Positions 247-61,551 of a stretch of 64,000 nucleotides of DNA are shown piece by piece; positions within the stretch are counted from its first letter, which is position 1, and the number at the start of each line of letters is the position of its first letter. Source of the DNA: Alphaproteobacteria bacterium. GTDB lineage: Bacteria; Pseudomonadota; Alphaproteobacteria; RF32; CAG-239. The position numbers were made by a program, and so were the translations under genes. Below the pieces are notes generated by a model. The model did not search any database, was not told the origin of the DNA, and saw only the letters and a list, made by a program, of their open reading frames with translations. The DNA lies in NCBI GenBank assembly GCA_017480745.1, contig JAFUSA010000023.1, positions 1 through 64,000 on the forward strand, given 5' to 3'.

Positions 247-445
247 CCATAACTTCGGTTAGGAGCCTTGAACAGCTCTTAGTACATTTGATGTTGAGAC
301 ATCATTATAAGGATATCAATTATCTCCGACTTGGGTTGGGGAGCCTGCAATGGATGTTCAGAGTGTTTGCTCAAAGATTGTGGGGATCGTTTAATGTACT
401 ATGATTGTTCAACTCCCCTGCCGCCGTTTAGGTGGCATGTTTTTA
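247..445 (+). ncRNA. structured leader RNA, class 2, copy A (ends in intrinsic terminator)
   Basis: Readable helices: UAAC-UUCG-GUUA tetraloop hairpin (250-261); GAGC/GCUC hairpin (263-278) whose loop UUGAACA (268-274) is complementary to UGUUCAA (406-412); AGUACAUU (281-288) with AAUGUACU (393-400); GAUGU/ACAUC hairpin (290-303); conserved CUCC...GGAG hairpin (324-343); CCUGCAAU (344-351) with AUUGUGGG (377-384); small GAGU/GCUC hairpin (361-372); terminator TGCCGCC/GGTGGCA (419-437) with a T run. The same helices occur with different sequence in the copies at 28817 and 60695, so pairing is supported by covariation. It precedes an unknown two-gene operon, not a pilin. Confidence 0.8.
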
Positions 446-2162: not shown

Positions 2163-2819
2163 CTATTTAAATAAAAATCCAATAAAAGCATCATTAATAG
2201 AACACATTCTTATTGCAATATCTAATGGTACAGGAATACCAATTGAACCACCAACATGTGCTTCTGAATATCGACCGGTTTCGACTCCATCGTTGCAAGT
2301 ATTAGAATGGTGCCAACAATTATCACCATAACCCTTTGTTTGAACATTCACAGTTAACCCTACAAACCCGGAAGAAACATTACTCCAGTCTAATGTTACC
2401 AATTCAATACATGCTTCTTGGGGGACCTGATAAAATCCGATTTCAAATGATTTTTGCGGATAAGGCCCTTGTGTCATTCCCGAAATATACATTTCTCCAA
2501 AAGATCCCTGATATTTACTACCATTAATAACTTCATCAGGTACAAGCTTGGCTTTTTTAATTACGGCATTTGTTAAACCGCTAAAATCTTTTTGCGGAGC
2601 GAAAAAAGTGCGAATATTTTGCGATATTTGCGACACTTGTTCAATGGTTTTGTTGATTTTATATTTCATCATCGCCTTTGAATATCCGGCGATACCACCG
2701 ACAGACAAAACACCGATTATTGCAAGAACGCCCAACATTTCAATCATTGAACGACCGGATTGACTCTCTCGCCCCTTGCGGTAGAGAGAATCATTATTTT
2801 TTATTTTTAAGTTCTTCAT
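2163..2819 (-). CDS. type IV prepilin-like protein (cassette 1)
   Basis: 218 aa. Residues 22-51 hold the class III signal: G22, R23 at mature position +1, E27 at +5, then a hydrophobic helix MLGVLAIIGVLSVGGIAGY as in type IV pilins and type II secretion pseudopilins. The leader peptide of 22 residues contains an imperfect palindrome at DNA level (CTCTC...GAGAG around a CGCAAGGGGC core). The C-terminal domain shares the PQEACIEL and DW motifs with the five other prepilins here; a second Cys near the C-terminus could close a pilin D-loop. It is a single-gene unit with its own promoter, class 1 leader RNA and an AAGGAA ribosome binding site. No pilus assembly genes are in the window, so pilus versus secretion use is open. 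Confidence 0.85.
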   Translation of the reverse strand: MKNLKIKNNDSLYRKGRESQSGRSMIEMLGVLAIIGVLSVGGIAGYSKAMMKYKINKTIEQVSQISQNIRTFFAPQKDFSGLTNAVIKKAKLVPDEVINGSKYQGSFGEMYISGMTQGPYPQKSFEIGFYQVPQEACIELVTLDWSNVSSGFVGLTVNVQTKGYGDNCWHHSNTCNDGVETGRYSEAHVGGSIGIPVPLDIAIRMCSINDAFIGFLFK

Positions 2820-2855: not shown

Positions 2856-3030
2856 TTAAAATAACCGCCTGATAAGACGGTCGGAAGTTGCAAACTATTA
2901 CATAATCAATAGTGCGAGCTATTTGACATATCTTATTCACCCACCTTCCAACCATAAAGTCGGAAATCTTCACGTCTGTTACGACGATTACGTAAGAGGT
3001 TTGCACACCTCAGATAATTACCTTATCCTA
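2856..3030 (-). ncRNA. structured leader RNA, class 1, copy E
   Basis: RNA runs from about 3030 down to a terminator (ACCG...CGGT, 2864-2881, then a U run). A GAGGU/ACCUC hairpin has loop GUGCAA; the loop-side segment UGCAAAC (2999-3005) is complementary to GUUUGCA (2889-2895). UUACGUAAU (2987-2995) pairs with AUUAUGUAA (2898-2906) including one G-U. A CGUC/GACG hairpin and the conserved UUCCGAC...GUUGGAA hairpin follow. The GGUUGGAAG strand can alternatively pair with CUUCCGACC beside the terminator. The pairings differ in sequence from the copies at 50731 and 55506 but are preserved. Confidence 0.78.
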
Positions 3031-3035
3031 ATTAT

Positions 3036-3063
3036 ATACTATCACAAAAAATGCAAAAGTCAA
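3036..3063 (-). promoter_or_regulatory. promoter of leader RNA E and prepilin cassette 1
   Basis: Reading on the - strand: TTGACT (3063-3058), 16-base spacer, TAGTAT (3041-3036). Confidence 0.75.
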
Positions 3064-10837: not shown

Positions 10838-10866
10838 TTGACTTCTGCGTTATGTGATAAGATATA
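10838..10866 (+). promoter_or_regulatory. promoter of truncated leader RNA B
   Basis: TTGACT (10838-10843) within the AAAAAATATTTGAC context shared with other leader promoters. The -10 could be TAAGAT (10858-10863, spacer 14) or GATATA (10861-10866, spacer 17); the usual 16-base spacing has been disturbed. Confidence 0.55.
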
Positions 10867-10990
10867 GATCTCCGATCTGGTCGGGGAGCCGTCAGTAGAT
10901 GTTCAGGGAACAATCCTAAAAATTGACGGGATCACTTATAATAGCATGATTCGCGAACTCCCCTGCCGCCAGCTCAGGCGGTTTGTTTTT
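10867..10990 (+). ncRNA. structured leader RNA, class 2, 5'-truncated copy B
   Basis: The conserved CUCCGA...UCGGGGAG hairpin (10870-10887), helix CCGUCAGU (10889-10896) with AUUGACGG (10922-10929), the GTTCAG motif, and terminator GCCGCC/GGCGGT (10965-10982) plus T run are intact. The two 5' hairpins and the long-range helix partners present in copies A, C and D are absent: the promoter is joined almost directly to the conserved hairpin. The retained helix differs in sequence from the other copies but pairs perfectly apart from one G-U, which supports the structure. Confidence 0.72.
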
Positions 10991-28043: not shown

Positions 28044-28781
28044 TTATTGAACGGCTAAACTTATTCTGAAAATGTTGGAACCGCTTGTAGGCTGACACGC
28101 GGTAACGGCTTCATCAACAGAAACCGGAGGAGTGTGTATTTTAACGGTGTCAGCATCTTGCAATATTTCTAAGCTGTAAGCATTTATATTACTCCAATCG
28201 TATGTTGCCAATTCTATGCAAGCCTCTTCCGGAACTGTATCAAAGGATATTAAAAAAGAATCATTAGATTTGTTTCTATCTGCGGCATCTACGGCTACAC
28301 TACCACCAAAAGAATTGGTAATTGCAGAAATTTTTCCATCAGTTATAGTTAACATTTCATCAGGTATTAATTTGGCTTTTTTTGCTATGGCCGTGTTATT
28401 TTCATTACAACCACCACCGCACACCTGCACACCGGCATAATTAGGTTGGGTGCTGTAAAAAGTTCGAAAGTTTCCGGCAATTAAAGTTATTTGCTCAATG
28501 GTTTTGTTAATGCGATATTTCATCATTGCCTTACTATATCCGGCAATACCGCCAACCGATAAAACACCGATTATGGCAAGAACACCCAACATTTCAATCA
28601 TGCTTCTTCCGTATTGCGGCACATCTGCTTGCCTGTTTTTCGCTAGTGTACTGTCTGTGTACACGGTACTCAAAACAGTCGGCGCATCTGTACCACTCTT
28701 CGGAAGAAGTGTACGTCCGGACAGGCTTTCTTTCCCGCAAGGGTTGAGAGAATTATTATTTTTTATTTTTAAGTTTTTCAT
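28044..28781 (-). CDS. type IV prepilin-like protein (cassette 2) with long leader peptide
   Basis: 245 aa. The prepilin signal is G58-R59 with Glu at mature +5, then the same hydrophobic helix as the other copies. The leader peptide is 58 residues, far longer than the usual 5-25; it contains inserted sequence with near-palindromes at DNA level (for example CACTCTTCGGAAGAAGTG at 28694-28711) and a QADVPQYGRS end shared with cassette 6. The mature part has VPEEACIEL, a DW motif, an additional CGGGC pair at about residues 120-125 and a final Cys. It is driven by a class 2 leader RNA. Confidence 0.82.
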   Translation of the reverse strand: MKNLKIKNNNSLNPCGKESLSGRTLLPKSGTDAPTVLSTVYTDSTLAKNRQADVPQYGRSMIEMLGVLAIIGVLSVGGIAGYSKAMMKYRINKTIEQITLIAGNFRTFYSTQPNYAGVQVCGGGCNENNTAIAKKAKLIPDEMLTITDGKISAITNSFGGSVAVDAADRNKSNDSFLISFDTVPEEACIELATYDWSNINAYSLEILQDADTVKIHTPPVSVDEAVTACQPTSGSNIFRISLAVQ

Positions 28782-28816: not shown

Positions 28817-29013
28817 AAAAAATCAACCGCTAAACAGCGGTCGGGAGAGTTTACAAATCATATGTACTGAAATGATCCTCACAGTCTTTAAGCAAACGCT
28901 CTGAACATCCACTGCAAGCTCCCCGTCCAAGTCGGAGATACTTATCATACCTAATAACGATGCTAAGCACCGCAGTACATAAGAGCTTGTAAAGGCCCCG
29001 AACCGAAGTTCTG
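28817..29013 (-). ncRNA. structured leader RNA, class 2, copy C
   Basis: On the - strand: GAAC-UUCG-GUUC tetraloop hairpin; GGGC/GCUC hairpin with loop UUUACAA (28993-28987) complementary to UUGUAAA (28856-28850); AUGUACUG (28980-28973) with CAGUACAU (28869-28862); GGUGC/GCAUC hairpin; conserved CUCCG...CGGGGAG hairpin; CUUGCAGU with ACUGUGAG; terminator ACCGCT/AGCGGT (28826-28841) plus U run. Every long-range helix is perfectly paired (G-U allowed) with sequence different from copies A and D. Confidence 0.82.
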
Positions 29014-37461: not shown

Positions 37462-37467
37462 GAAGAC

Positions 37468-37640
37468 AAGATAAGGTAACTTGTCTGAGGTCTGAAAACC
37501 TCTCTAATATGCGTCATATAAAGACGTTAAATATTTCCGGCTATGGCTGGAAGGTGGGTGAATAAGGCTATACCAATACACAACACTATTTATAACGAAG
37601 TAGTTCTGAACTTCCGGCCGCCTTTATCGGGCGGTTGTTT
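37468..37640 (+). ncRNA. structured leader RNA, class 1, copy H (apparently chimeric)
   Basis: Local hairpins are intact: AGATAAG-GUAA-CUUGUCU, GAGGU-CUGAAA-ACCUC, GCGUC/GACGU, conserved UUUCCGGC...GGCUGGAA, and terminator CCGCC/GGCGG (37618-37634) with U run. The long-range pairs are not: the loop and its distal partner match at about 5 of 7 positions and the 8-nt helix at about 5 of 8. Its GGTGGGTGAATAAG segment matches copy E (2856-3030), while CAATACACAACACTATT matches copies I and J, as if two leaders had recombined near 37575. Confidence 0.75.
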
Positions 37641-37679
37641 TAATGTAATATCAACAATTCATACGAAAGGAAGTTTACT

Positions 37680-47459: not shown

Positions 47460-49802
47460 ATGATAAATGCTTTTAATTTATGGTTTAGTCGCCAATCTCT
47501 GGTTCAAAAACTAAGCTGGAGTATATTGAGTTGTGTGTTCTTCGGCTTTTTAGCTTTGGTATCGTTTATATCCGAACATTCAGAGCATATTATTAAATCG
47601 CAGTTAGATTCCTTAGCGCAAAAAAATGTGCAAAATTATGTTGCTGAAATATCCGGATTAGCGGCAGATACGGAAAAAATTGTTTTAAACACGCGCAATT
47701 CTCTCAATCAAATCAGCGAAAATGATGTAGATTCCATAAAGTTATTACTGACCTCAGCTCTTAAATCAAGTACAAGTTCAAGTTCAAGTTTCAATTTTAA
47801 TGATGCATGGATTTATTTTTTCGCGGAAGATGAAGTTGCAAAAGGCACTTTATATGTGAGTAAATACCATGATTACAGCATAGGATTTTCTGCTGAAAAA
47901 ATAGATAATTTTTATGCTCATTTTCCGTGGTTTAAAGAAGTTCCGAAAGAAGAAAAAATTTATTGGTCCGAACCTTATATTGATCAGGAAACAGGTCGCA
48001 CGGTAATTACATGCTTATTGCCATTTATGTTTAAGAACAGCACAATTTTGAACGGCTTAGCCGCCATATCAGTTGATTTAACTAATATTCAAGACAACAT
48101 AAGCAAATTTTCATTCAATGAAAAAGGGAAATTATTACTCATATCTCGCTCAGGTCTTTATGTTACTTACCCAGATCCTGGTATTGCTTTGCATACCACC
48201 ATATTTGAGCTTGCTGAACAGTTGAATTTGCCCAAACTGAGTGCGCTTGGCAAAGATGTATTGTCCGGTCATTCCGGAATGATGAATATTGCCGTTGATG
48301 TAAAGGATTTTAATGGTAATGCCGTATTTTTCTATGCTCCTGTACCACAGCTTAAATGGGGAATTTTTTTGATTTATTCGGCCGAACAGTTTTTCTTCCC
48401 TTTACATAAATTCAGAAGTGCCATCATGCTTGCTCTATTATCTGGGTTGTTAATTTTATTTTCCATAATAAGCTGGATTTGCCACTATTCTACACGTCCA
48501 TTGTTGCAACTGAGCAAAATTGCCGAGCATTACGGACAGGGAAATTTTTTAGAAGATTTTCCGGAAATTAAATCGGCTGATGAAATAGGAATTTTATCGC
48601 GCACACTCTCAAATATGCGAACCAATTTGCTTGACTATATTGAAAAGGAAAAAAACGCGGCTTCGGAAAAGCAGCGTTCACAAAGTGAACTTGAAATTGC
48701 CAAACAAATACAAAAATCGGCACTTTCTGTTGATTATCCTCAGCATAAAGCTTTTCAAATATGTTCGTTTATGGAACCAGCTCGGCAAGTTGGTGGAGAT
48801 TTCTATGATTTTTTCTTTATTGACAAAAATAAGTTTGCCATAGTTATTGCAGATGTTTCTGGCAAAGGGATACCAGCGGCCTTATTTATGATGAAAACGC
48901 AAGCATTGATTAAAAGTATTGCAAAACAAGAAAAGTCGGCTTCCGAAGTATTTTATAAAGTCAATAACGAATTATATATCGGCAATGATACTTGCATGTT
49001 TGTTTCGGCATTTATGGCGGTAATTGATTTAGAACGCGGAATTATGGAATATGTGAATGCCGGACATACTCCACCGTTTTTGGATAGTGGGAATGGTTAT
49101 AAAATAATGTCGCCCGATAAAAATGTATTATTAGGAATTTATAAAGACGCCCGTTTTACTTCCGGTAGTTTGCAGTTACAATCAGGCAACCGTGTCTTTT
49201 TATACACTGATGGCGTAACAGAGGCTGAAAATGTTAAAACACATTTTTATGGAGAAAACAGATTAAGCAAAATTTTGCTCCAAAAATCAACCACCCCAAG
49301 TGAAACTATATCCTTAGTGATAAAAGACATTAAAAAATTTGTAAAAAACAACGAGCAGTCTGATGACATTACAATGCTTGAATTTTTATACACAGGGAAT
49401 TCCGCAAACGGATTAACGGTTGAAGCAAATAATTTGTGTTTGCCGGAAGTGTTAAATTACATTCGCAAGGATATGTCGGCGGAAAATATTGCAACAGAAA
49501 AGCAAAACAATATGATTGTGGCTGCGGAAGAAATATTCTCCAATATTGCACAATACGCATACAAAGACAACGGCAAGGTGGATATTATAACCGCGATTGA
49601 AAACGGATATTATACTATAACTTTTAAAGATTCCGGCAAACATTATAATCCGCTCAAACATAAAGATATGGATTTAAGTTTGCCACCGGAAGAGCGTCCT
49701 ATCGGCGGTTTGGGAATTATATTGATTAAAAAAATGACTGATTTACAGAGCTACAGTTATGCAAATCAGCAGAATATTTTTAAAGTGGGGATAAAAATAT
49801 AA
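47460..49802 (+). CDS. membrane sensor with SpoIIE phosphatase and HATPase kinase domains
   Basis: 780 aa. Order: membrane helix (about 18-38), periplasmic Cache-like sensor (about 40-300; WIYFFAEDE, PYIDQETGRTVITC, FFYAPVPQLKWGIFLIY), second helix (about 320-342), HAMP (about 343-395; TRPLLQLSKIAEHYGQG), PP2C/SpoIIE domain (RQVGGDFYDFF, VIADVSGKGIPAALFM, LYTDGVTEAEN, SDDITML) and a C-terminal RsbW-like ATPase (VAAEEIFSNIAQYAY, FKDSGKHYNP, GGLGIILIK). Phosphatase and kinase for the neighbouring STAS protein appear fused in one chain, so an external signal could set STAS phosphorylation both ways. Confidence 0.9.
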   Translation: MINAFNLWFSRQSLVQKLSWSILSCVFFGFLALVSFISEHSEHIIKSQLDSLAQKNVQNYVAEISGLAADTEKIVLNTRNSLNQISENDVDSIKLLLTSALKSSTSSSSSFNFNDAWIYFFAEDEVAKGTLYVSKYHDYSIGFSAEKIDNFYAHFPWFKEVPKEEKIYWSEPYIDQETGRTVITCLLPFMFKNSTILNGLAAISVDLTNIQDNISKFSFNEKGKLLLISRSGLYVTYPDPGIALHTTIFELAEQLNLPKLSALGKDVLSGHSGMMNIAVDVKDFNGNAVFFYAPVPQLKWGIFLIYSAEQFFFPLHKFRSAIMLALLSGLLILFSIISWICHYSTRPLLQLSKIAEHYGQGNFLEDFPEIKSADEIGILSRTLSNMRTNLLDYIEKEKNAASEKQRSQSELEIAKQIQKSALSVDYPQHKAFQICSFMEPARQVGGDFYDFFFIDKNKFAIVIADVSGKGIPAALFMMKTQALIKSIAKQEKSASEVFYKVNNELYIGNDTCMFVSAFMAVIDLERGIMEYVNAGHTPPFLDSGNGYKIMSPDKNVLLGIYKDARFTSGSLQLQSGNRVFLYTDGVTEAENVKTHFYGENRLSKILLQKSTTPSETISLVIKDIKKFVKNNEQSDDITMLEFLYTGNSANGLTVEANNLCLPEVLNYIRKDMSAENIATEKQNNMIVAAEEIFSNIAQYAYKDNGKVDIITAIENGYYTITFKDSGKHYNPLKHKDMDLSLPPEERPIGGLGIILIKKMTDLQSYSYANQQNIFKVGIKI

Positions 49803-49928: not shown

Positions 49929-50696
49929 TTAACAACCGCCTTTTTCTACGCTACAACTTTCTAAATAATTTTTCCAATACTCACTTGATGGATCTATACC
50001 GATGCGTAACGTAAAATGTAGTACACTATCACGTGTTCCATCTGAGCAAGCCATAGTTGCATCATAAACATTAAATTGTGTCTGAACATATGCGACAATA
50101 TCAATTTTAGAAATTTCTACAATCACATTATCAGCAATATTGCTCCAATCCCGCGAAGCCAGTTCAATACACGCTTCCTCATTATCTACGATATCGTAAT
50201 TTATTTCGAACGCCTGATTATCTCTGTTTTTGGCTTTATCTACTGGACTTAAATCAACCCCACCACCAAAAGGATTGGTAATAGACATAATCTTACCATC
50301 AGTTACGGTAATCATTTCATCAGGGAATATTTTGGCTTTTTTAACTATCGGACAGCCATTGGCAGCATAGGTAGGTCTTCCGTTTGCATCAACGCCGGAA
50401 GCACCCATGCAACCGGAGGCGGGGCAATTATATCCACCACAATACACCCCGATATAATTCTTCTGTGGTCCCCAAAAGGCACGCACATTGCCGGCAATGA
50501 GAGTTATTTGCTCAATGGTTTTGTTGATTCTATATTTTTGCATCGCTTTCGAATATCCGGCGATTCCGCCAACAGAGAGAACGCCAATTATAGCAAGAAC
50601 TCCCAACATCTCAATCATTGAGCGTCCGCTCTGCACGCTTTTCGTCATTGCGAGCGCAGCGTGGCAATCATTGTTTTTTATTTCAAAGTTTCTCAT
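49929..50696 (-). CDS. type IV prepilin-like protein (cassette 4)
   Basis: 255 aa. Leader peptide of 24 residues (G24-R25, Glu at +5) containing CHAALAMTK, encoded by a 27-bp sequence also present in cassette 6. The mature part shares GPQKNYIGVYC, ASGCMGASGV, NGCPIVKKAKIFPDEM and SITNPFGGGVDL with cassette 3, with extra Cys pairs; the last 90 residues differ. EEACIEL, the DW motif and the late Cys remain. Class 1 leader RNA and AAAGGAAG ribosome binding site upstream. Confidence 0.86.
   Translation of the reverse strand: MRNFEIKNNDCHAALAMTKSVQSGRSMIEMLGVLAIIGVLSVGGIAGYSKAMQKYRINKTIEQITLIAGNVRAFWGPQKNYIGVYCGGYNCPASGCMGASGVDANGRPTYAANGCPIVKKAKIFPDEMITVTDGKIMSITNPFGGGVDLSPVDKAKNRDNQAFEINYDIVDNEEACIELASRDWSNIADNVIVEISKIDIVAYVQTQFNVYDATMACSDGTRDSVLHFTLRIGIDPSSEYWKNYLESCSVEKGGC
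50643..50669 (-). repeat. 27-bp repeat within the prepilin 4 leader peptide
   Basis: Identical over 27 bases to 60952-60978 in prepilin cassette 6, in the same frame and position. Its ATTGCGAGCG...GTGGCAAT core is an imperfect palindrome of a kind I recall as a dispersed repeat in Rickettsia and other bacteria. Confidence 0.7.
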
Positions 50697-50730: not shown

Positions 50731-50902
50731 AAAACAATACCGCCCTTATGAGGCGGCCGGAAGTTCGAAACTACTTTTCACTGAATAGTGTTGTGTATTA
50801 AGATTTATTCCACAACCCTCCGGCCAACACCGGAAAACATAACGCTCTTTAAAAGCGAGTGAAAAAGAGGTTTCGACACCTCAGACAAGTTACCTCATCT
50901 TG
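50731..50902 (-). ncRNA. structured leader RNA, class 1, copy I
   Basis: On the - strand: AGAUGAG-GUAA-CUUGUCU hairpin; GAGGU/ACCUC hairpin whose loop segment UCGAAAC (50876-50870) is complementary to GUUUCGA (50771-50765); UUUUCACU (50865-50858) with AGUGAAAA (50782-50775); CGCU/AGCG hairpin; conserved UUUUCCGGU...GGCCGGAG hairpin; GUUGUG (50816-50811) with CACAAC (50795-50790); terminator CCGCC/GGCGG (50740-50756) and U run. All helices are intact. Confidence 0.82.
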
Positions 50903-50907
50903 TGTTT

Positions 50908-55499: not shown

Positions 55500-55505
55500 A
55501 AAATC

Positions 55506-55676
55506 AAGATGAGGTAACTTGTCTGGGGTGTCGAAACCTCTTTTGAACTCGCCTTTAAGGGCGTAAAATTTCCGGCGTTGGCTGGAAGGCTGTGGAATAA
55601 AACTGTATCAATACACAGCACTATTTAGTTCAAAGTAGTTTCGAACTTCCGGCCGCCCCAGTGGGCGGTTGTTTTT
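55506..55676 (+). ncRNA. structured leader RNA, class 1, copy J
   Basis: AGATGAG-GUAA-CUUGUCU hairpin (55507-55524); GGGGU/ACCUC hairpin (55525-55540) with segment UCGAAAC (55531-55537) complementary to GUUUCGA (55638-55644); UUUGAACU (55542-55549) with AGUUCAAA (55627-55634); CGCC/GGCG hairpin; conserved UUCCGGC...GCUGGAA hairpin (55570-55587); GCUGUG (55589-55594) with CACAGC (55614-55619); terminator CCGCCC/GGGCGG (55653-55668) and U run. Alternatively GGCUGGAAG (55580-55588) pairs nine bases with CUUCCGGCC (55646-55654), overlapping the terminator arm. Confidence 0.85.
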
Positions 55677-55711: not shown

Positions 55712-56320
55712 ATGAGAAACTTTGAAATAAAAAATCAAAATGGACGTTCAATGATAGAAATGTTGGGCGTATTGGCTATCATCGGCGTTTTGTCGGTTGG
55801 CGGTATCGCCGGATATTCAAAGGCAATGACCAAATATCGCATCAACAAAACAATTGAACAGATTACCTTAATTTCGCAAAACATTCGTACTTTTTATTCT
55901 ACGCAAAAAAATTATATTGGTTTGAGTTATACGGTAATTAATAAAGCAAAACTGATTCCGGACGAAATGGAAATGATTGACGGCAACTATCAAGGTGCTT
56001 TCGGTAATGTAACTATTGGTTATGCTACCGGTAAAAAAGGTGATGGTTCTGCCTTTAGTTTGGGTTTTGCTTCTATTCCGCAAGAAGCTTGCATAGAACT
56101 TTTAACTATGGATTGGGGTAGTGCTGCCTCTGGTTTCTTGGGAATAGCAAAAGGAGAACCGGGATGGAATCACGGTTATTATCAAGAATGCAGTGATTGT
56201 AATAGTGATCATGCATGGATAGCCTTAGTAGGTGGCACAGAAATCGGCATTCCTTTTCCAATGGAAAAAGCGATAGCTGCTTGCGATACAACGAATGGAA
56301 TACACTTGTTGTTTGAATAA
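55712..56320 (+). CDS. type IV prepilin-like protein (cassette 5), short leader peptide
   Basis: 202 aa, the most canonical member: the leader peptide is only 11 residues (MRNFEIKNQNG, then R12 at mature +1 and Glu at +5), with no palindromic insert. The mature part resembles cassette 1 (SQNIRTF, KAKLIPDE, QGAFG, PQEACIEL, GGTEIGIPFPMEKAI, late Cys). AAAGGAAG precedes ATG 55712; an in-frame ATG-like start at 55694 is upstream of the ribosome binding site. Class 1 leader RNA upstream. Confidence 0.88.
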   Translation: MRNFEIKNQNGRSMIEMLGVLAIIGVLSVGGIAGYSKAMTKYRINKTIEQITLISQNIRTFYSTQKNYIGLSYTVINKAKLIPDEMEMIDGNYQGAFGNVTIGYATGKKGDGSAFSLGFASIPQEACIELLTMDWGSAASGFLGIAKGEPGWNHGYYQECSDCNSDHAWIALVGGTEIGIPFPMEKAIAACDTTNGIHLLFE

Positions 56321-60660: not shown

Positions 60661-60688
60661 TTGACTTTTGCTTTTTTTATGATAGTAT
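60661..60688 (+). promoter_or_regulatory. promoter of leader RNA D and prepilin cassette 6
   Basis: TTGACT (60661-60666), 16-base spacer, TAGTAT (60683-60688). Confidence 0.78.
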
Positions 60689-60694
60689 GACAAT

Positions 60695-60893
60695 AGAACT
60701 TCGGTTCGAGAGCCTTCGAAAGCTCTTATTCAGTTCGGTGCTTTGCATCGTTACTTTATATTGATTTATCTCCGATTTTGGGCGGGGAGCTTGCAGTGGA
60801 TGTTCAGAGCTTTATGCTTAAAGATTGCAAGGATCATTTAACTGAATATGATTTTCGAACTCTCCCGACCGTCGTTTGCGGTCAATTTTTTTT
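60695..60893 (+). ncRNA. structured leader RNA, class 2, copy D
   Basis: GAAC-UUCG-GUUC hairpin; AGAGC/GCUCU hairpin with loop UUCGAAA (60715-60721) complementary to UUUCGAA (60853-60859); AUUCAGUU (60728-60735) with AACUGAAU (60840-60847); GGUGC/GCAUC hairpin; conserved CUCCG...CGGGGAG hairpin; CUUGCAGU with AUUGCAAG around the GGATGTTCAGAG motif; terminator GACCG/CGGTC (60867-60883) and eight U (60886-60893). Compared with copies A and C every helix is kept while both strands change. Confidence 0.85.
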
Positions 60894-60924: not shown

Positions 60925-61551
60925 ATGAAAAACTTTGATACAAAAAATATAGATTGCCACGCTGCGCTCGCAATGACGAAAAACGGGCAAACAGATGTGC
61001 TGCAATACGGAAGAAGCATGATAGAAATGTTGGGCGTTCTTGCTATCATTGGTGTTTTGAGTGTTGGAGGTATCGCTGGATATAGCAAGGCAATGATGAA
61101 GTATAGAATTAACAAAACTATTGAGCAAATAACACTCATTGCCGGCAATATTCGCACCTTTTTTGCCCCGCAGAAGAGTTACGATGAAGTTGGTGATAAA
61201 ACAATTCTGCGTAAAGCCAAACTGGTTCCGGATGAAATGTGGGATGGTAATAACATTAAAAATGTATGGGGTGGTGTTGGAGATATTTGGGCAGAAAGTA
61301 AGTCATCAGGTGGAGATAGAAAAGCTTTTGCTATTTATTTTGAAATAGAAAAAGAAGCATGTATTGAGTTAATTACACATGATTGGACAACATCTGGTGC
61401 ATTCATTGTAGGAAGTGGAGGTTTAAACAGCATTTTAAAAGTTCCTGTTTCTATCGATGATGCCGTAAAGGAGTGTTGGGATAGTTTATATCTTTATTTT
61501 GATATAGATATTAATTCAACATATTGGCAAAATCAATTGAATCCTAACTGA
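60925..61551 (+). CDS. type IV prepilin-like protein (cassette 6)
   Basis: 208 aa. The start at 60925 follows GAGGAGATGAAATT; an in-frame start at 60778 lies inside the leader RNA. The leader peptide is 29 residues (G29-R30, Glu at +5) with CHAALAMTK as in cassette 4 and QTDVLQYGRS as in cassette 2, so it is a composite of two inserts seen elsewhere. Mature part: FFAPQKSYDEV, KAKLVPDEMW, EKEACIEL, HDW motif and late Cys (KECWDS). The shortest variable domain apart from cassette 5. Confidence 0.87.
   Translation: MKNFDTKNIDCHAALAMTKNGQTDVLQYGRSMIEMLGVLAIIGVLSVGGIAGYSKAMMKYRINKTIEQITLIAGNIRTFFAPQKSYDEVGDKTILRKAKLVPDEMWDGNNIKNVWGGVGDIWAESKSSGGDRKAFAIYFEIEKEACIELITHDWTTSGAFIVGSGGLNSILKVPVSIDDAVKECWDSLYLYFDIDINSTYWQNQLNPN
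60952..60978 (+). repeat. 27-bp repeat within the prepilin 6 leader peptide
   Basis: Identical to the complement of 50643-50669 in prepilin cassette 4; encodes the CHAALAMT part of the leader peptide. Confidence 0.7.

Follow-up and report, generated by a model that had tools for sequence, protein, structure and literature searches.

A pseudoknotted leader RNA akin to C4 and sRNA-Xcc1 upstream of type IVb-like pilin genes, probably a cis-acting transcription attenuator

The window, the whole stretch of 64,000 nt analysed here, is part of a 1.6 Mb genome (G000) of an organism known from metagenome assemblies only. The locus under study comprises a sigma-70-like promoter, a class 2 leader RNA ending in an intrinsic terminator and a type IVb-like pilin gene (Table 1). 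The three complete class 2 copies reported by the first-pass annotation were all present, and the loop/distal and 8-bp pairings that it had given for each were found in the sequence. In the copy it described as truncated (approximately 10866-10990), the 5' half was missing and the P4 hairpin was retained. Class 1 leaders in the same window showed the class 2 architecture with a distinct core sequence. Pilins were encoded at, e.g. 2163-2819 (-), 28044-28781 (-), 50448-50627 (-), 55742-55924 and 60925-61551. The pilin ORFs had near-identical N-termini and variable C-terminal parts.

Table 1. Positions of the leader RNA elements and neighbouring features in the window.
Feature	Position	Strand	Evidence or remark
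Sigma-70-like promoter TTGACT-N16-TAGTAT	60661-60688	+	Predicted transcription start is the first base of the element
Whole class 2 leader RNA including terminator U-tract	60695-60893	+	
P0 hairpin GAAC-UUCG-GUUC	60696-60707	+	Covariation analysis, helix 1
HA hairpin (GAGC/GCUC), loop holds L1, UUCGAAA (60715-60721)	60710-60725	+	Class-wide covariation, z -8.9
L2 (AUUCAGUU), 5' strand of private 8-bp helix	60728-60735	+	8/8 pairs two-sided; z -41.8
P2 hairpin	60736-60750	+	Covariation analysis, helix 5
P3 hairpin (anti-antiterminator)	60769-60788	+	Covariation helix 6; thermodynamic model
Antiterminator 5' strand (GGGCGGGGAG), 5' side of C4 outer stem	60780-60789	+	z -11.3
P4 hairpin; its internal loop, GGAUGUUCA/AAAG, is conserved	60790-60831	+	Helices 7-8; loop nearly invariant
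HB hairpin (AUCAU/AUGAU), loop holds L2', AACUGAAU (60840-60847)	60833-60852	+	Class-wide z -7.5
L1' (UUUCGAA), partner of L1	60853-60859	+	Helix 3; class-wide z -26.6
Antiterminator 3' strand CUCUCCCGACC, overlapping terminator 5' arm	60860-60870	+	
Intrinsic terminator (GACCG/CGGUC + U-tract)	60867-60893	+	Helix 10
Type IVb-like pilin (GRSMIEMLGVLAIIGVLSVGGIAGYSKAM), PilS/Bundlin	60925-61551	+	Pfam
Class 2 leader, next gene non-pilin	249-444	+	
Class 2 leader, next gene pilin	28817-29012	-	
Truncated copy lacking the 5' half (C4-like half plus terminator remain)	10866-10990	+	Promoter directly upstream
Class 1 (shorter) leader, same architecture, pilin next	37465-37642	+	
Class 1 leader, pilin next	50737-50903	-	
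Class 1 leader, pilin next	55504-55671	+	
Class 1 leader, pilin next	2858-3036	-	

BLAST and then a covariance model trained on 42 copies detected 83 full-length copies of the element (approximately 195 nt) in the genome of the window, plus truncated or weaker ones, a larger scale of occurrence than the first-pass annotation had reported. A promoter of the form TTGAC-N16..18-hexamer preceded 82 of these 83 copies. It ended a median of 6 nt before the element, which places the expected transcription start at the P0 hairpin. The terminator carried a U-tract in 86% of the genome's own copies and in 83-86% of leaders overall, and a Shine-Dalgarno sequence and start codon lay approximately 20-40 nt beyond it. 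Among 85 aligned copies, two of them cut by contig ends, 79 were followed by a type IVb-like pilin ORF (PilS/Bundlin in Pfam). Other downstream contents were a lipoprotein, a family 2 glycosyltransferase, an unassigned protein and, for one copy, no intact pilin. The genome held at least 150 type IVb-like pilin ORFs among 182 candidates. Genus relatives held 3-37, and the pilin expansion is special to the genome of the window.

In the 5' to 3' direction, the leader consists of P0, HA (loop: L1), L2, P2, P3, P4, HB (loop: L2'), L1' and the terminator. In the alignment of 85 copies, 98.8% of cells were paired, compared with 81.3 ± 0.3% after shuffling of partners and 34-46% after sliding them. 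Two-sided changes were found in 851 cells versus 223 ± 19 in shuffled sets, and covariation was seen in all helices. At all eight pairs of L2:L2' both sides varied, and mutual information calculated with no structure assumed recovered the same pairs. Cis partners were also compared with swapped partners in 97 non-redundant relatives across the class, giving z values of -8.9 for HA, -26.6 for L1, -41.8 for L2, -7.5 for HB and -11.3 for the antiterminator described below. RNAalifold proposed a single long, nested and bulged P1 helix joining L1, L2 and the linker. This fold was rejected, since HA and HB covary class-wide and are therefore both real hairpins, and the pseudoknot reading stands. The RNA is a reciprocal double pseudoknot, in which the segment immediately 3' of each hairpin, HA or HB, pairs with the loop of the other. 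The first-pass claim of a covarying, pseudoknotted leader RNA was thus strongly supported by the pairing statistics and the class-wide swaps, and the fold can be regarded as a near certainty.

The long-range helices had been called private to each copy, which is accurate for the 8-bp helix only. L2 was distinct in 82 of the 83 sequences, and for 92% of the leaders the own L2' was the single best partner. L1 comprised only 29 different heptamers among the 83 copies, and the own partner was the single best one in only 4%. Active over-dispersion of the L2 sequences was considered and rejected; nearest-neighbour distances equalled those of column-shuffled sets, as for random draws. The per-site diversity of L2 was mostly about 0.7 versus 0.54 at four-fold sites of the pilins, a suggestive difference that is confounded by gene conversion.

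Searches with the covariance model recovered the leader RNA in the genus, the order and the class. In the genus, 22 of 26 genomes carried it, most often in 1-9 copies and in one case in 37. The BLAST results had given the impression of a genus-restricted family, which was rejected by matches in 108 of 125 genomes of the order and 17 of 190 genomes of the class. In a DNA pattern scan, the hosts were alphaproteobacterial metagenome assemblies from rumen and gut. A phage reservoir was rejected as well, as none of five pattern matches in viral contigs was confirmed by the covariance model. One partial match was located on an unverified faecal scaffold. Downstream genes in the relatives encoded an LRR protein, a lipoprotein, a glycosyltransferase, a nuclease, an adhesin-like protein or a pilin. 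The relative with 37 copies originated from roe deer reticulum (G011; e.g. loci L147, L126 and L012), and its leaders were amplified before BspA-like LRR and other secreted proteins, not pilins.

A number of 83 copies in one genome would also be expected of a mobile or repeat element of the MITE type that came to lie upstream of duplicated pilins by chance and has no regulatory role. This origin is extremely unlikely, given that the helices changed in pairs instead of decaying, that the spacing to promoter and start codon is constant and that the leader was kept at orthologous genes in other species, as exemplified by the lipoprotein gene shared by G000 and G019.

The 3' arm of P3, GGUCGGGGAG, is complementary to the 5' arm of P3 and also to CUC(U)CCCGACC, a segment shared in part with the 5' arm of the terminator. 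The second pairing forms an antiterminator helix of 9-11 bp in nearly every copy. As both helices use the same strand, P3 and the antiterminator exclude each other. In relatives, covarying examples of the antiterminator were GGUCUGGGAG/CUCUCCAGACC, GGUGGGGAG/CUCCCCGCC and GGUCGGGGAA/UUCCCCGACC, and the pairing energy was -19.2 kcal/mol for cis strands versus -16.8 kcal/mol for swapped strands (sd 0.28). Its strands barely vary within the genome of the window, where the swap test was flat, and the covariation evidence for this helix therefore comes mainly from the relatives. In copies with CUCCCCUGCCGCC, the overlap between antiterminator and terminator was only about 2 nt. The GG in the loop of P3 was invariant although unpaired in P3, which is explained only by the antiterminator, i.e. 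the C4 stem. Altogether, the region upstream of the gene combines a terminator with a covarying antiterminator, each of which excludes the other; the first-pass annotation had proposed no such mechanism.

The thermodynamic model was pseudoknot-free, and in the three-dimensional structure the lock of L1:L1' and L2:L2' might coexist with the antiterminator, much as C4 may keep its fold while bound to a1b1. For the intact leader it yielded probabilities of 0.91 for the L2 part of the lock, 0.91 for P3 and 0.00 for the antiterminator. With the 5' half blocked and the terminator incomplete, the pseudoknot-free antiterminator value rose to 0.72, P3 fell to 0.13, and the antiterminator exceeded 0.5 in 83% of copies. 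With the full terminator present and the 5' half blocked, the same model favoured the terminator, leaving 0.17 for the antiterminator. Because the complete terminator is favoured even then, switching would have to be co-transcriptional.

At Rfam cutoffs, the scan of the window returned only a 5S rRNA and two tRNAs, and no Rfam 15 family matched the leader above cutoff. The first-pass annotation had recognised no known family in it, which holds at these cutoffs and is incomplete below them, where the 3' half corresponds to the C4/sRNA-Xcc1 fold and the 5' half to an a1b1-type partner. For C4 (RF01695, cutoff 45 bits), the genome of the window gave no match at E <= 1 and the best match in relatives reached 29.5 bits. 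For sRNA-Xcc1 (RF02221, cutoff 53 bits), the best matches were 42.5 bits in class genomes and 34.7 bits in G000. The distant copy L300 matched C4 with 23.5 bits and sRNA-Xcc1 as well, both below cutoff. In several genomes, sRNA-Xcc1 matches below the cutoff coincided in register with the leader's 3' half, e.g. in G153, G155, G276, G297 and G304, and also in G320, G024, G011 and G206. In the genome of the window, the sRNA-Xcc1 model gave 36 below-cutoff matches, mostly to class 1 leaders, which came to light through this search.

The antiterminator helix is the equivalent of the outer stem of C4, and P4 and HB correspond to the two C4 hairpins. The C4 layout was found in the leader as its alternative, antiterminator fold, which covaries: an outer stem encloses two hairpins, the loop of the second holds b', and a' lies after it. 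The leader also has upstream segments of the a1/b1 type, complementary to a'/b' (HA/L1/L2), with a1 in a hairpin loop. In phage P1, C4 is located at 48337-48422; upstream of it, a1 in a hairpin loop and then b1 are complementary to a'/b', and the order of a1/b1 and a'/b' is the same as that of L1/L2 and L1'/L2'. A test of 60 genuine family members, in which the hairpin-constrained version was decisive and a looser pair-score version noisy, detected an upstream hairpin-plus-L2 partner in 29 of 30 C4 and 28 of 30 sRNA-Xcc1 RNAs compared with 9-10% for swapped upstream regions. The c4-a1b1 motif was listed by Weinberg 2010 (PMC2864571), and the upstream partner was hence already known for phages. 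No report was found of the generality of this partner or of its presence in sRNA-Xcc1. The relation of the leaders to C4 and sRNA-Xcc1 is assigned with high confidence.

Leaders and C4 share the order of promoter, RNA and gene, but differ in their output. A complement of the HB loop downstream (b2-type target) was present in 83% of C4 versus 10% of swapped controls and in 60% of sRNA-Xcc1 (swapped controls for the two families 10-12%), in contrast to 14-17% of leaders. A C4-like second target at the gene start was therefore rejected for the leaders, the values being 14% versus 14% swapped in the genome of the window and, near background, 17% versus 10% swapped in relatives. A U-tract terminator was found in none of the C4 RNAs and 3% of sRNA-Xcc1, unlike the leaders. 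The internal loop of P4 is present in leaders and absent from P1 C4. Since two defining features failed, the score and the downstream target, the leaders lie outside both Rfam families, though their pairing logic is C4-like. sRNA-Xcc1 has been reported upstream of symE in integron cassettes (PMC12444791) and described as a free sRNA of approximately 88 nt (PMC2996969). The Group 1 C4-like sRNAs of Acinetobacter baumannii are likewise numerous in one genome, with variable a'/b' segments, but they were described as phage-derived and processed from larger transcripts (PMC5320573), whereas the leaders carry a terminator before a host gene family.

The leader probably attenuates transcription in cis, using the C4/a1b1 antisense-RNA fold ahead of host surface genes, with the private pseudoknot locking it OFF. 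HA displays L1 in its loop followed by L2, and approximately 100 nt further on HB displays L2' in its loop followed by L1'; L1:L1' and L2:L2' form a lock joining the 5' half to the 3' half. With the lock closed, P3 would occupy its own 3' arm, the terminator would form and transcription would stop before the gene. If L1 and L2 were prevented from pairing, the 3' arm of P3 would pair with CUC(U)CCCGACC, giving the antiterminator and the C4 fold; the terminator would be disrupted and the gene read (ON). Opening of the lock would take place during transcription. The truncated copy, with a promoter right before its C4-like half, represents a natural deletion test of the lock.

The best candidate for a sensor site that opens the lock is the conserved internal loop of P4. 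A metabolite riboswitch, in which a ligand at this loop or at the junction would shift the same switch and the long-range helices would be ordinary stems, is rather unlikely, although GGAUGUUCA/AAAG is nearly invariant even before very different genes and sits on a terminator/antiterminator platform. The downstream pilins, LRR proteins, lipoproteins and glycosyltransferases show no metabolic theme, and the nearness to C4 and sRNA-Xcc1, for which to our knowledge no ligand is known, also speaks against it. A riboswitch is compatible with attenuation and would merely name the trigger.

Another reading takes the leader as the precursor of a trans-acting sRNA of the C4 type, which RNase P would cut at the GGU opening the antiterminator strand, the freed half then silencing transcripts with matching L1/L2. 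The fold and a1b1 layout are those of C4, and the truncated copy at 10866 retains the C4-like half by itself. A GGW site has been described for C4 and for the C4-like RNAs of Acinetobacter (PMC5320573), and the conserved GG agrees with it. Every copy, though, closes with a terminator immediately upstream of a gene, and the second target at the gene start was not found. Trans pairs of L2 within 1 kcal/mol of the cis pair amounted to only 2.6%, and as L2 is private a freed RNA could match its own leader only. Such a precursor is therefore improbable compared with cis-acting attenuation.

Under the attenuator reading, the leader is likely a C4-superfamily RNA that was turned into a cis-acting switch and amplified along with the pilin family. 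Its output moved from the translation start to what looks like transcription termination, i.e. one RNA fold changed from translational to apparently transcriptional control, and an orphan multi-copy leader RNA is tied to C4, a phage immunity RNA. At least 150 pilin genes, most of them with a putative RNA switch, are carried by this one genome, which belongs to unstudied bacteria common in animal guts. It is quite doubtful that L2:L2' acts as an address, by which each of the 80-odd pilin genes would be switched separately, either by its own terminated leader working on sister transcripts or by a matching sRNA, with a few pilins expressed at once; if it did, an RNA-based surface variation would have evolved from a phage immunity RNA.

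Judging by the partner analysis, the C4 and sRNA-Xcc1 RNAs listed as independent elements would usually represent the 3' portion of a longer RNA paired in cis, and the role of a1b1 thereby becomes testable. The same upstream partner segments were observed in sRNA-Xcc1-like RNAs (L318-L322, L325, L330 and L359-L361), genuine members from Aeromonas, Pseudomonas and Nitratidesulfovibrio included. In the 5' part of the sRNA-Xcc1-type leaders L359-L361 and L318, past L2 and before the C4 portion, a conserved hairpin is followed by a T run (e.g. GGCTTTTTT) and resembles an early terminator.
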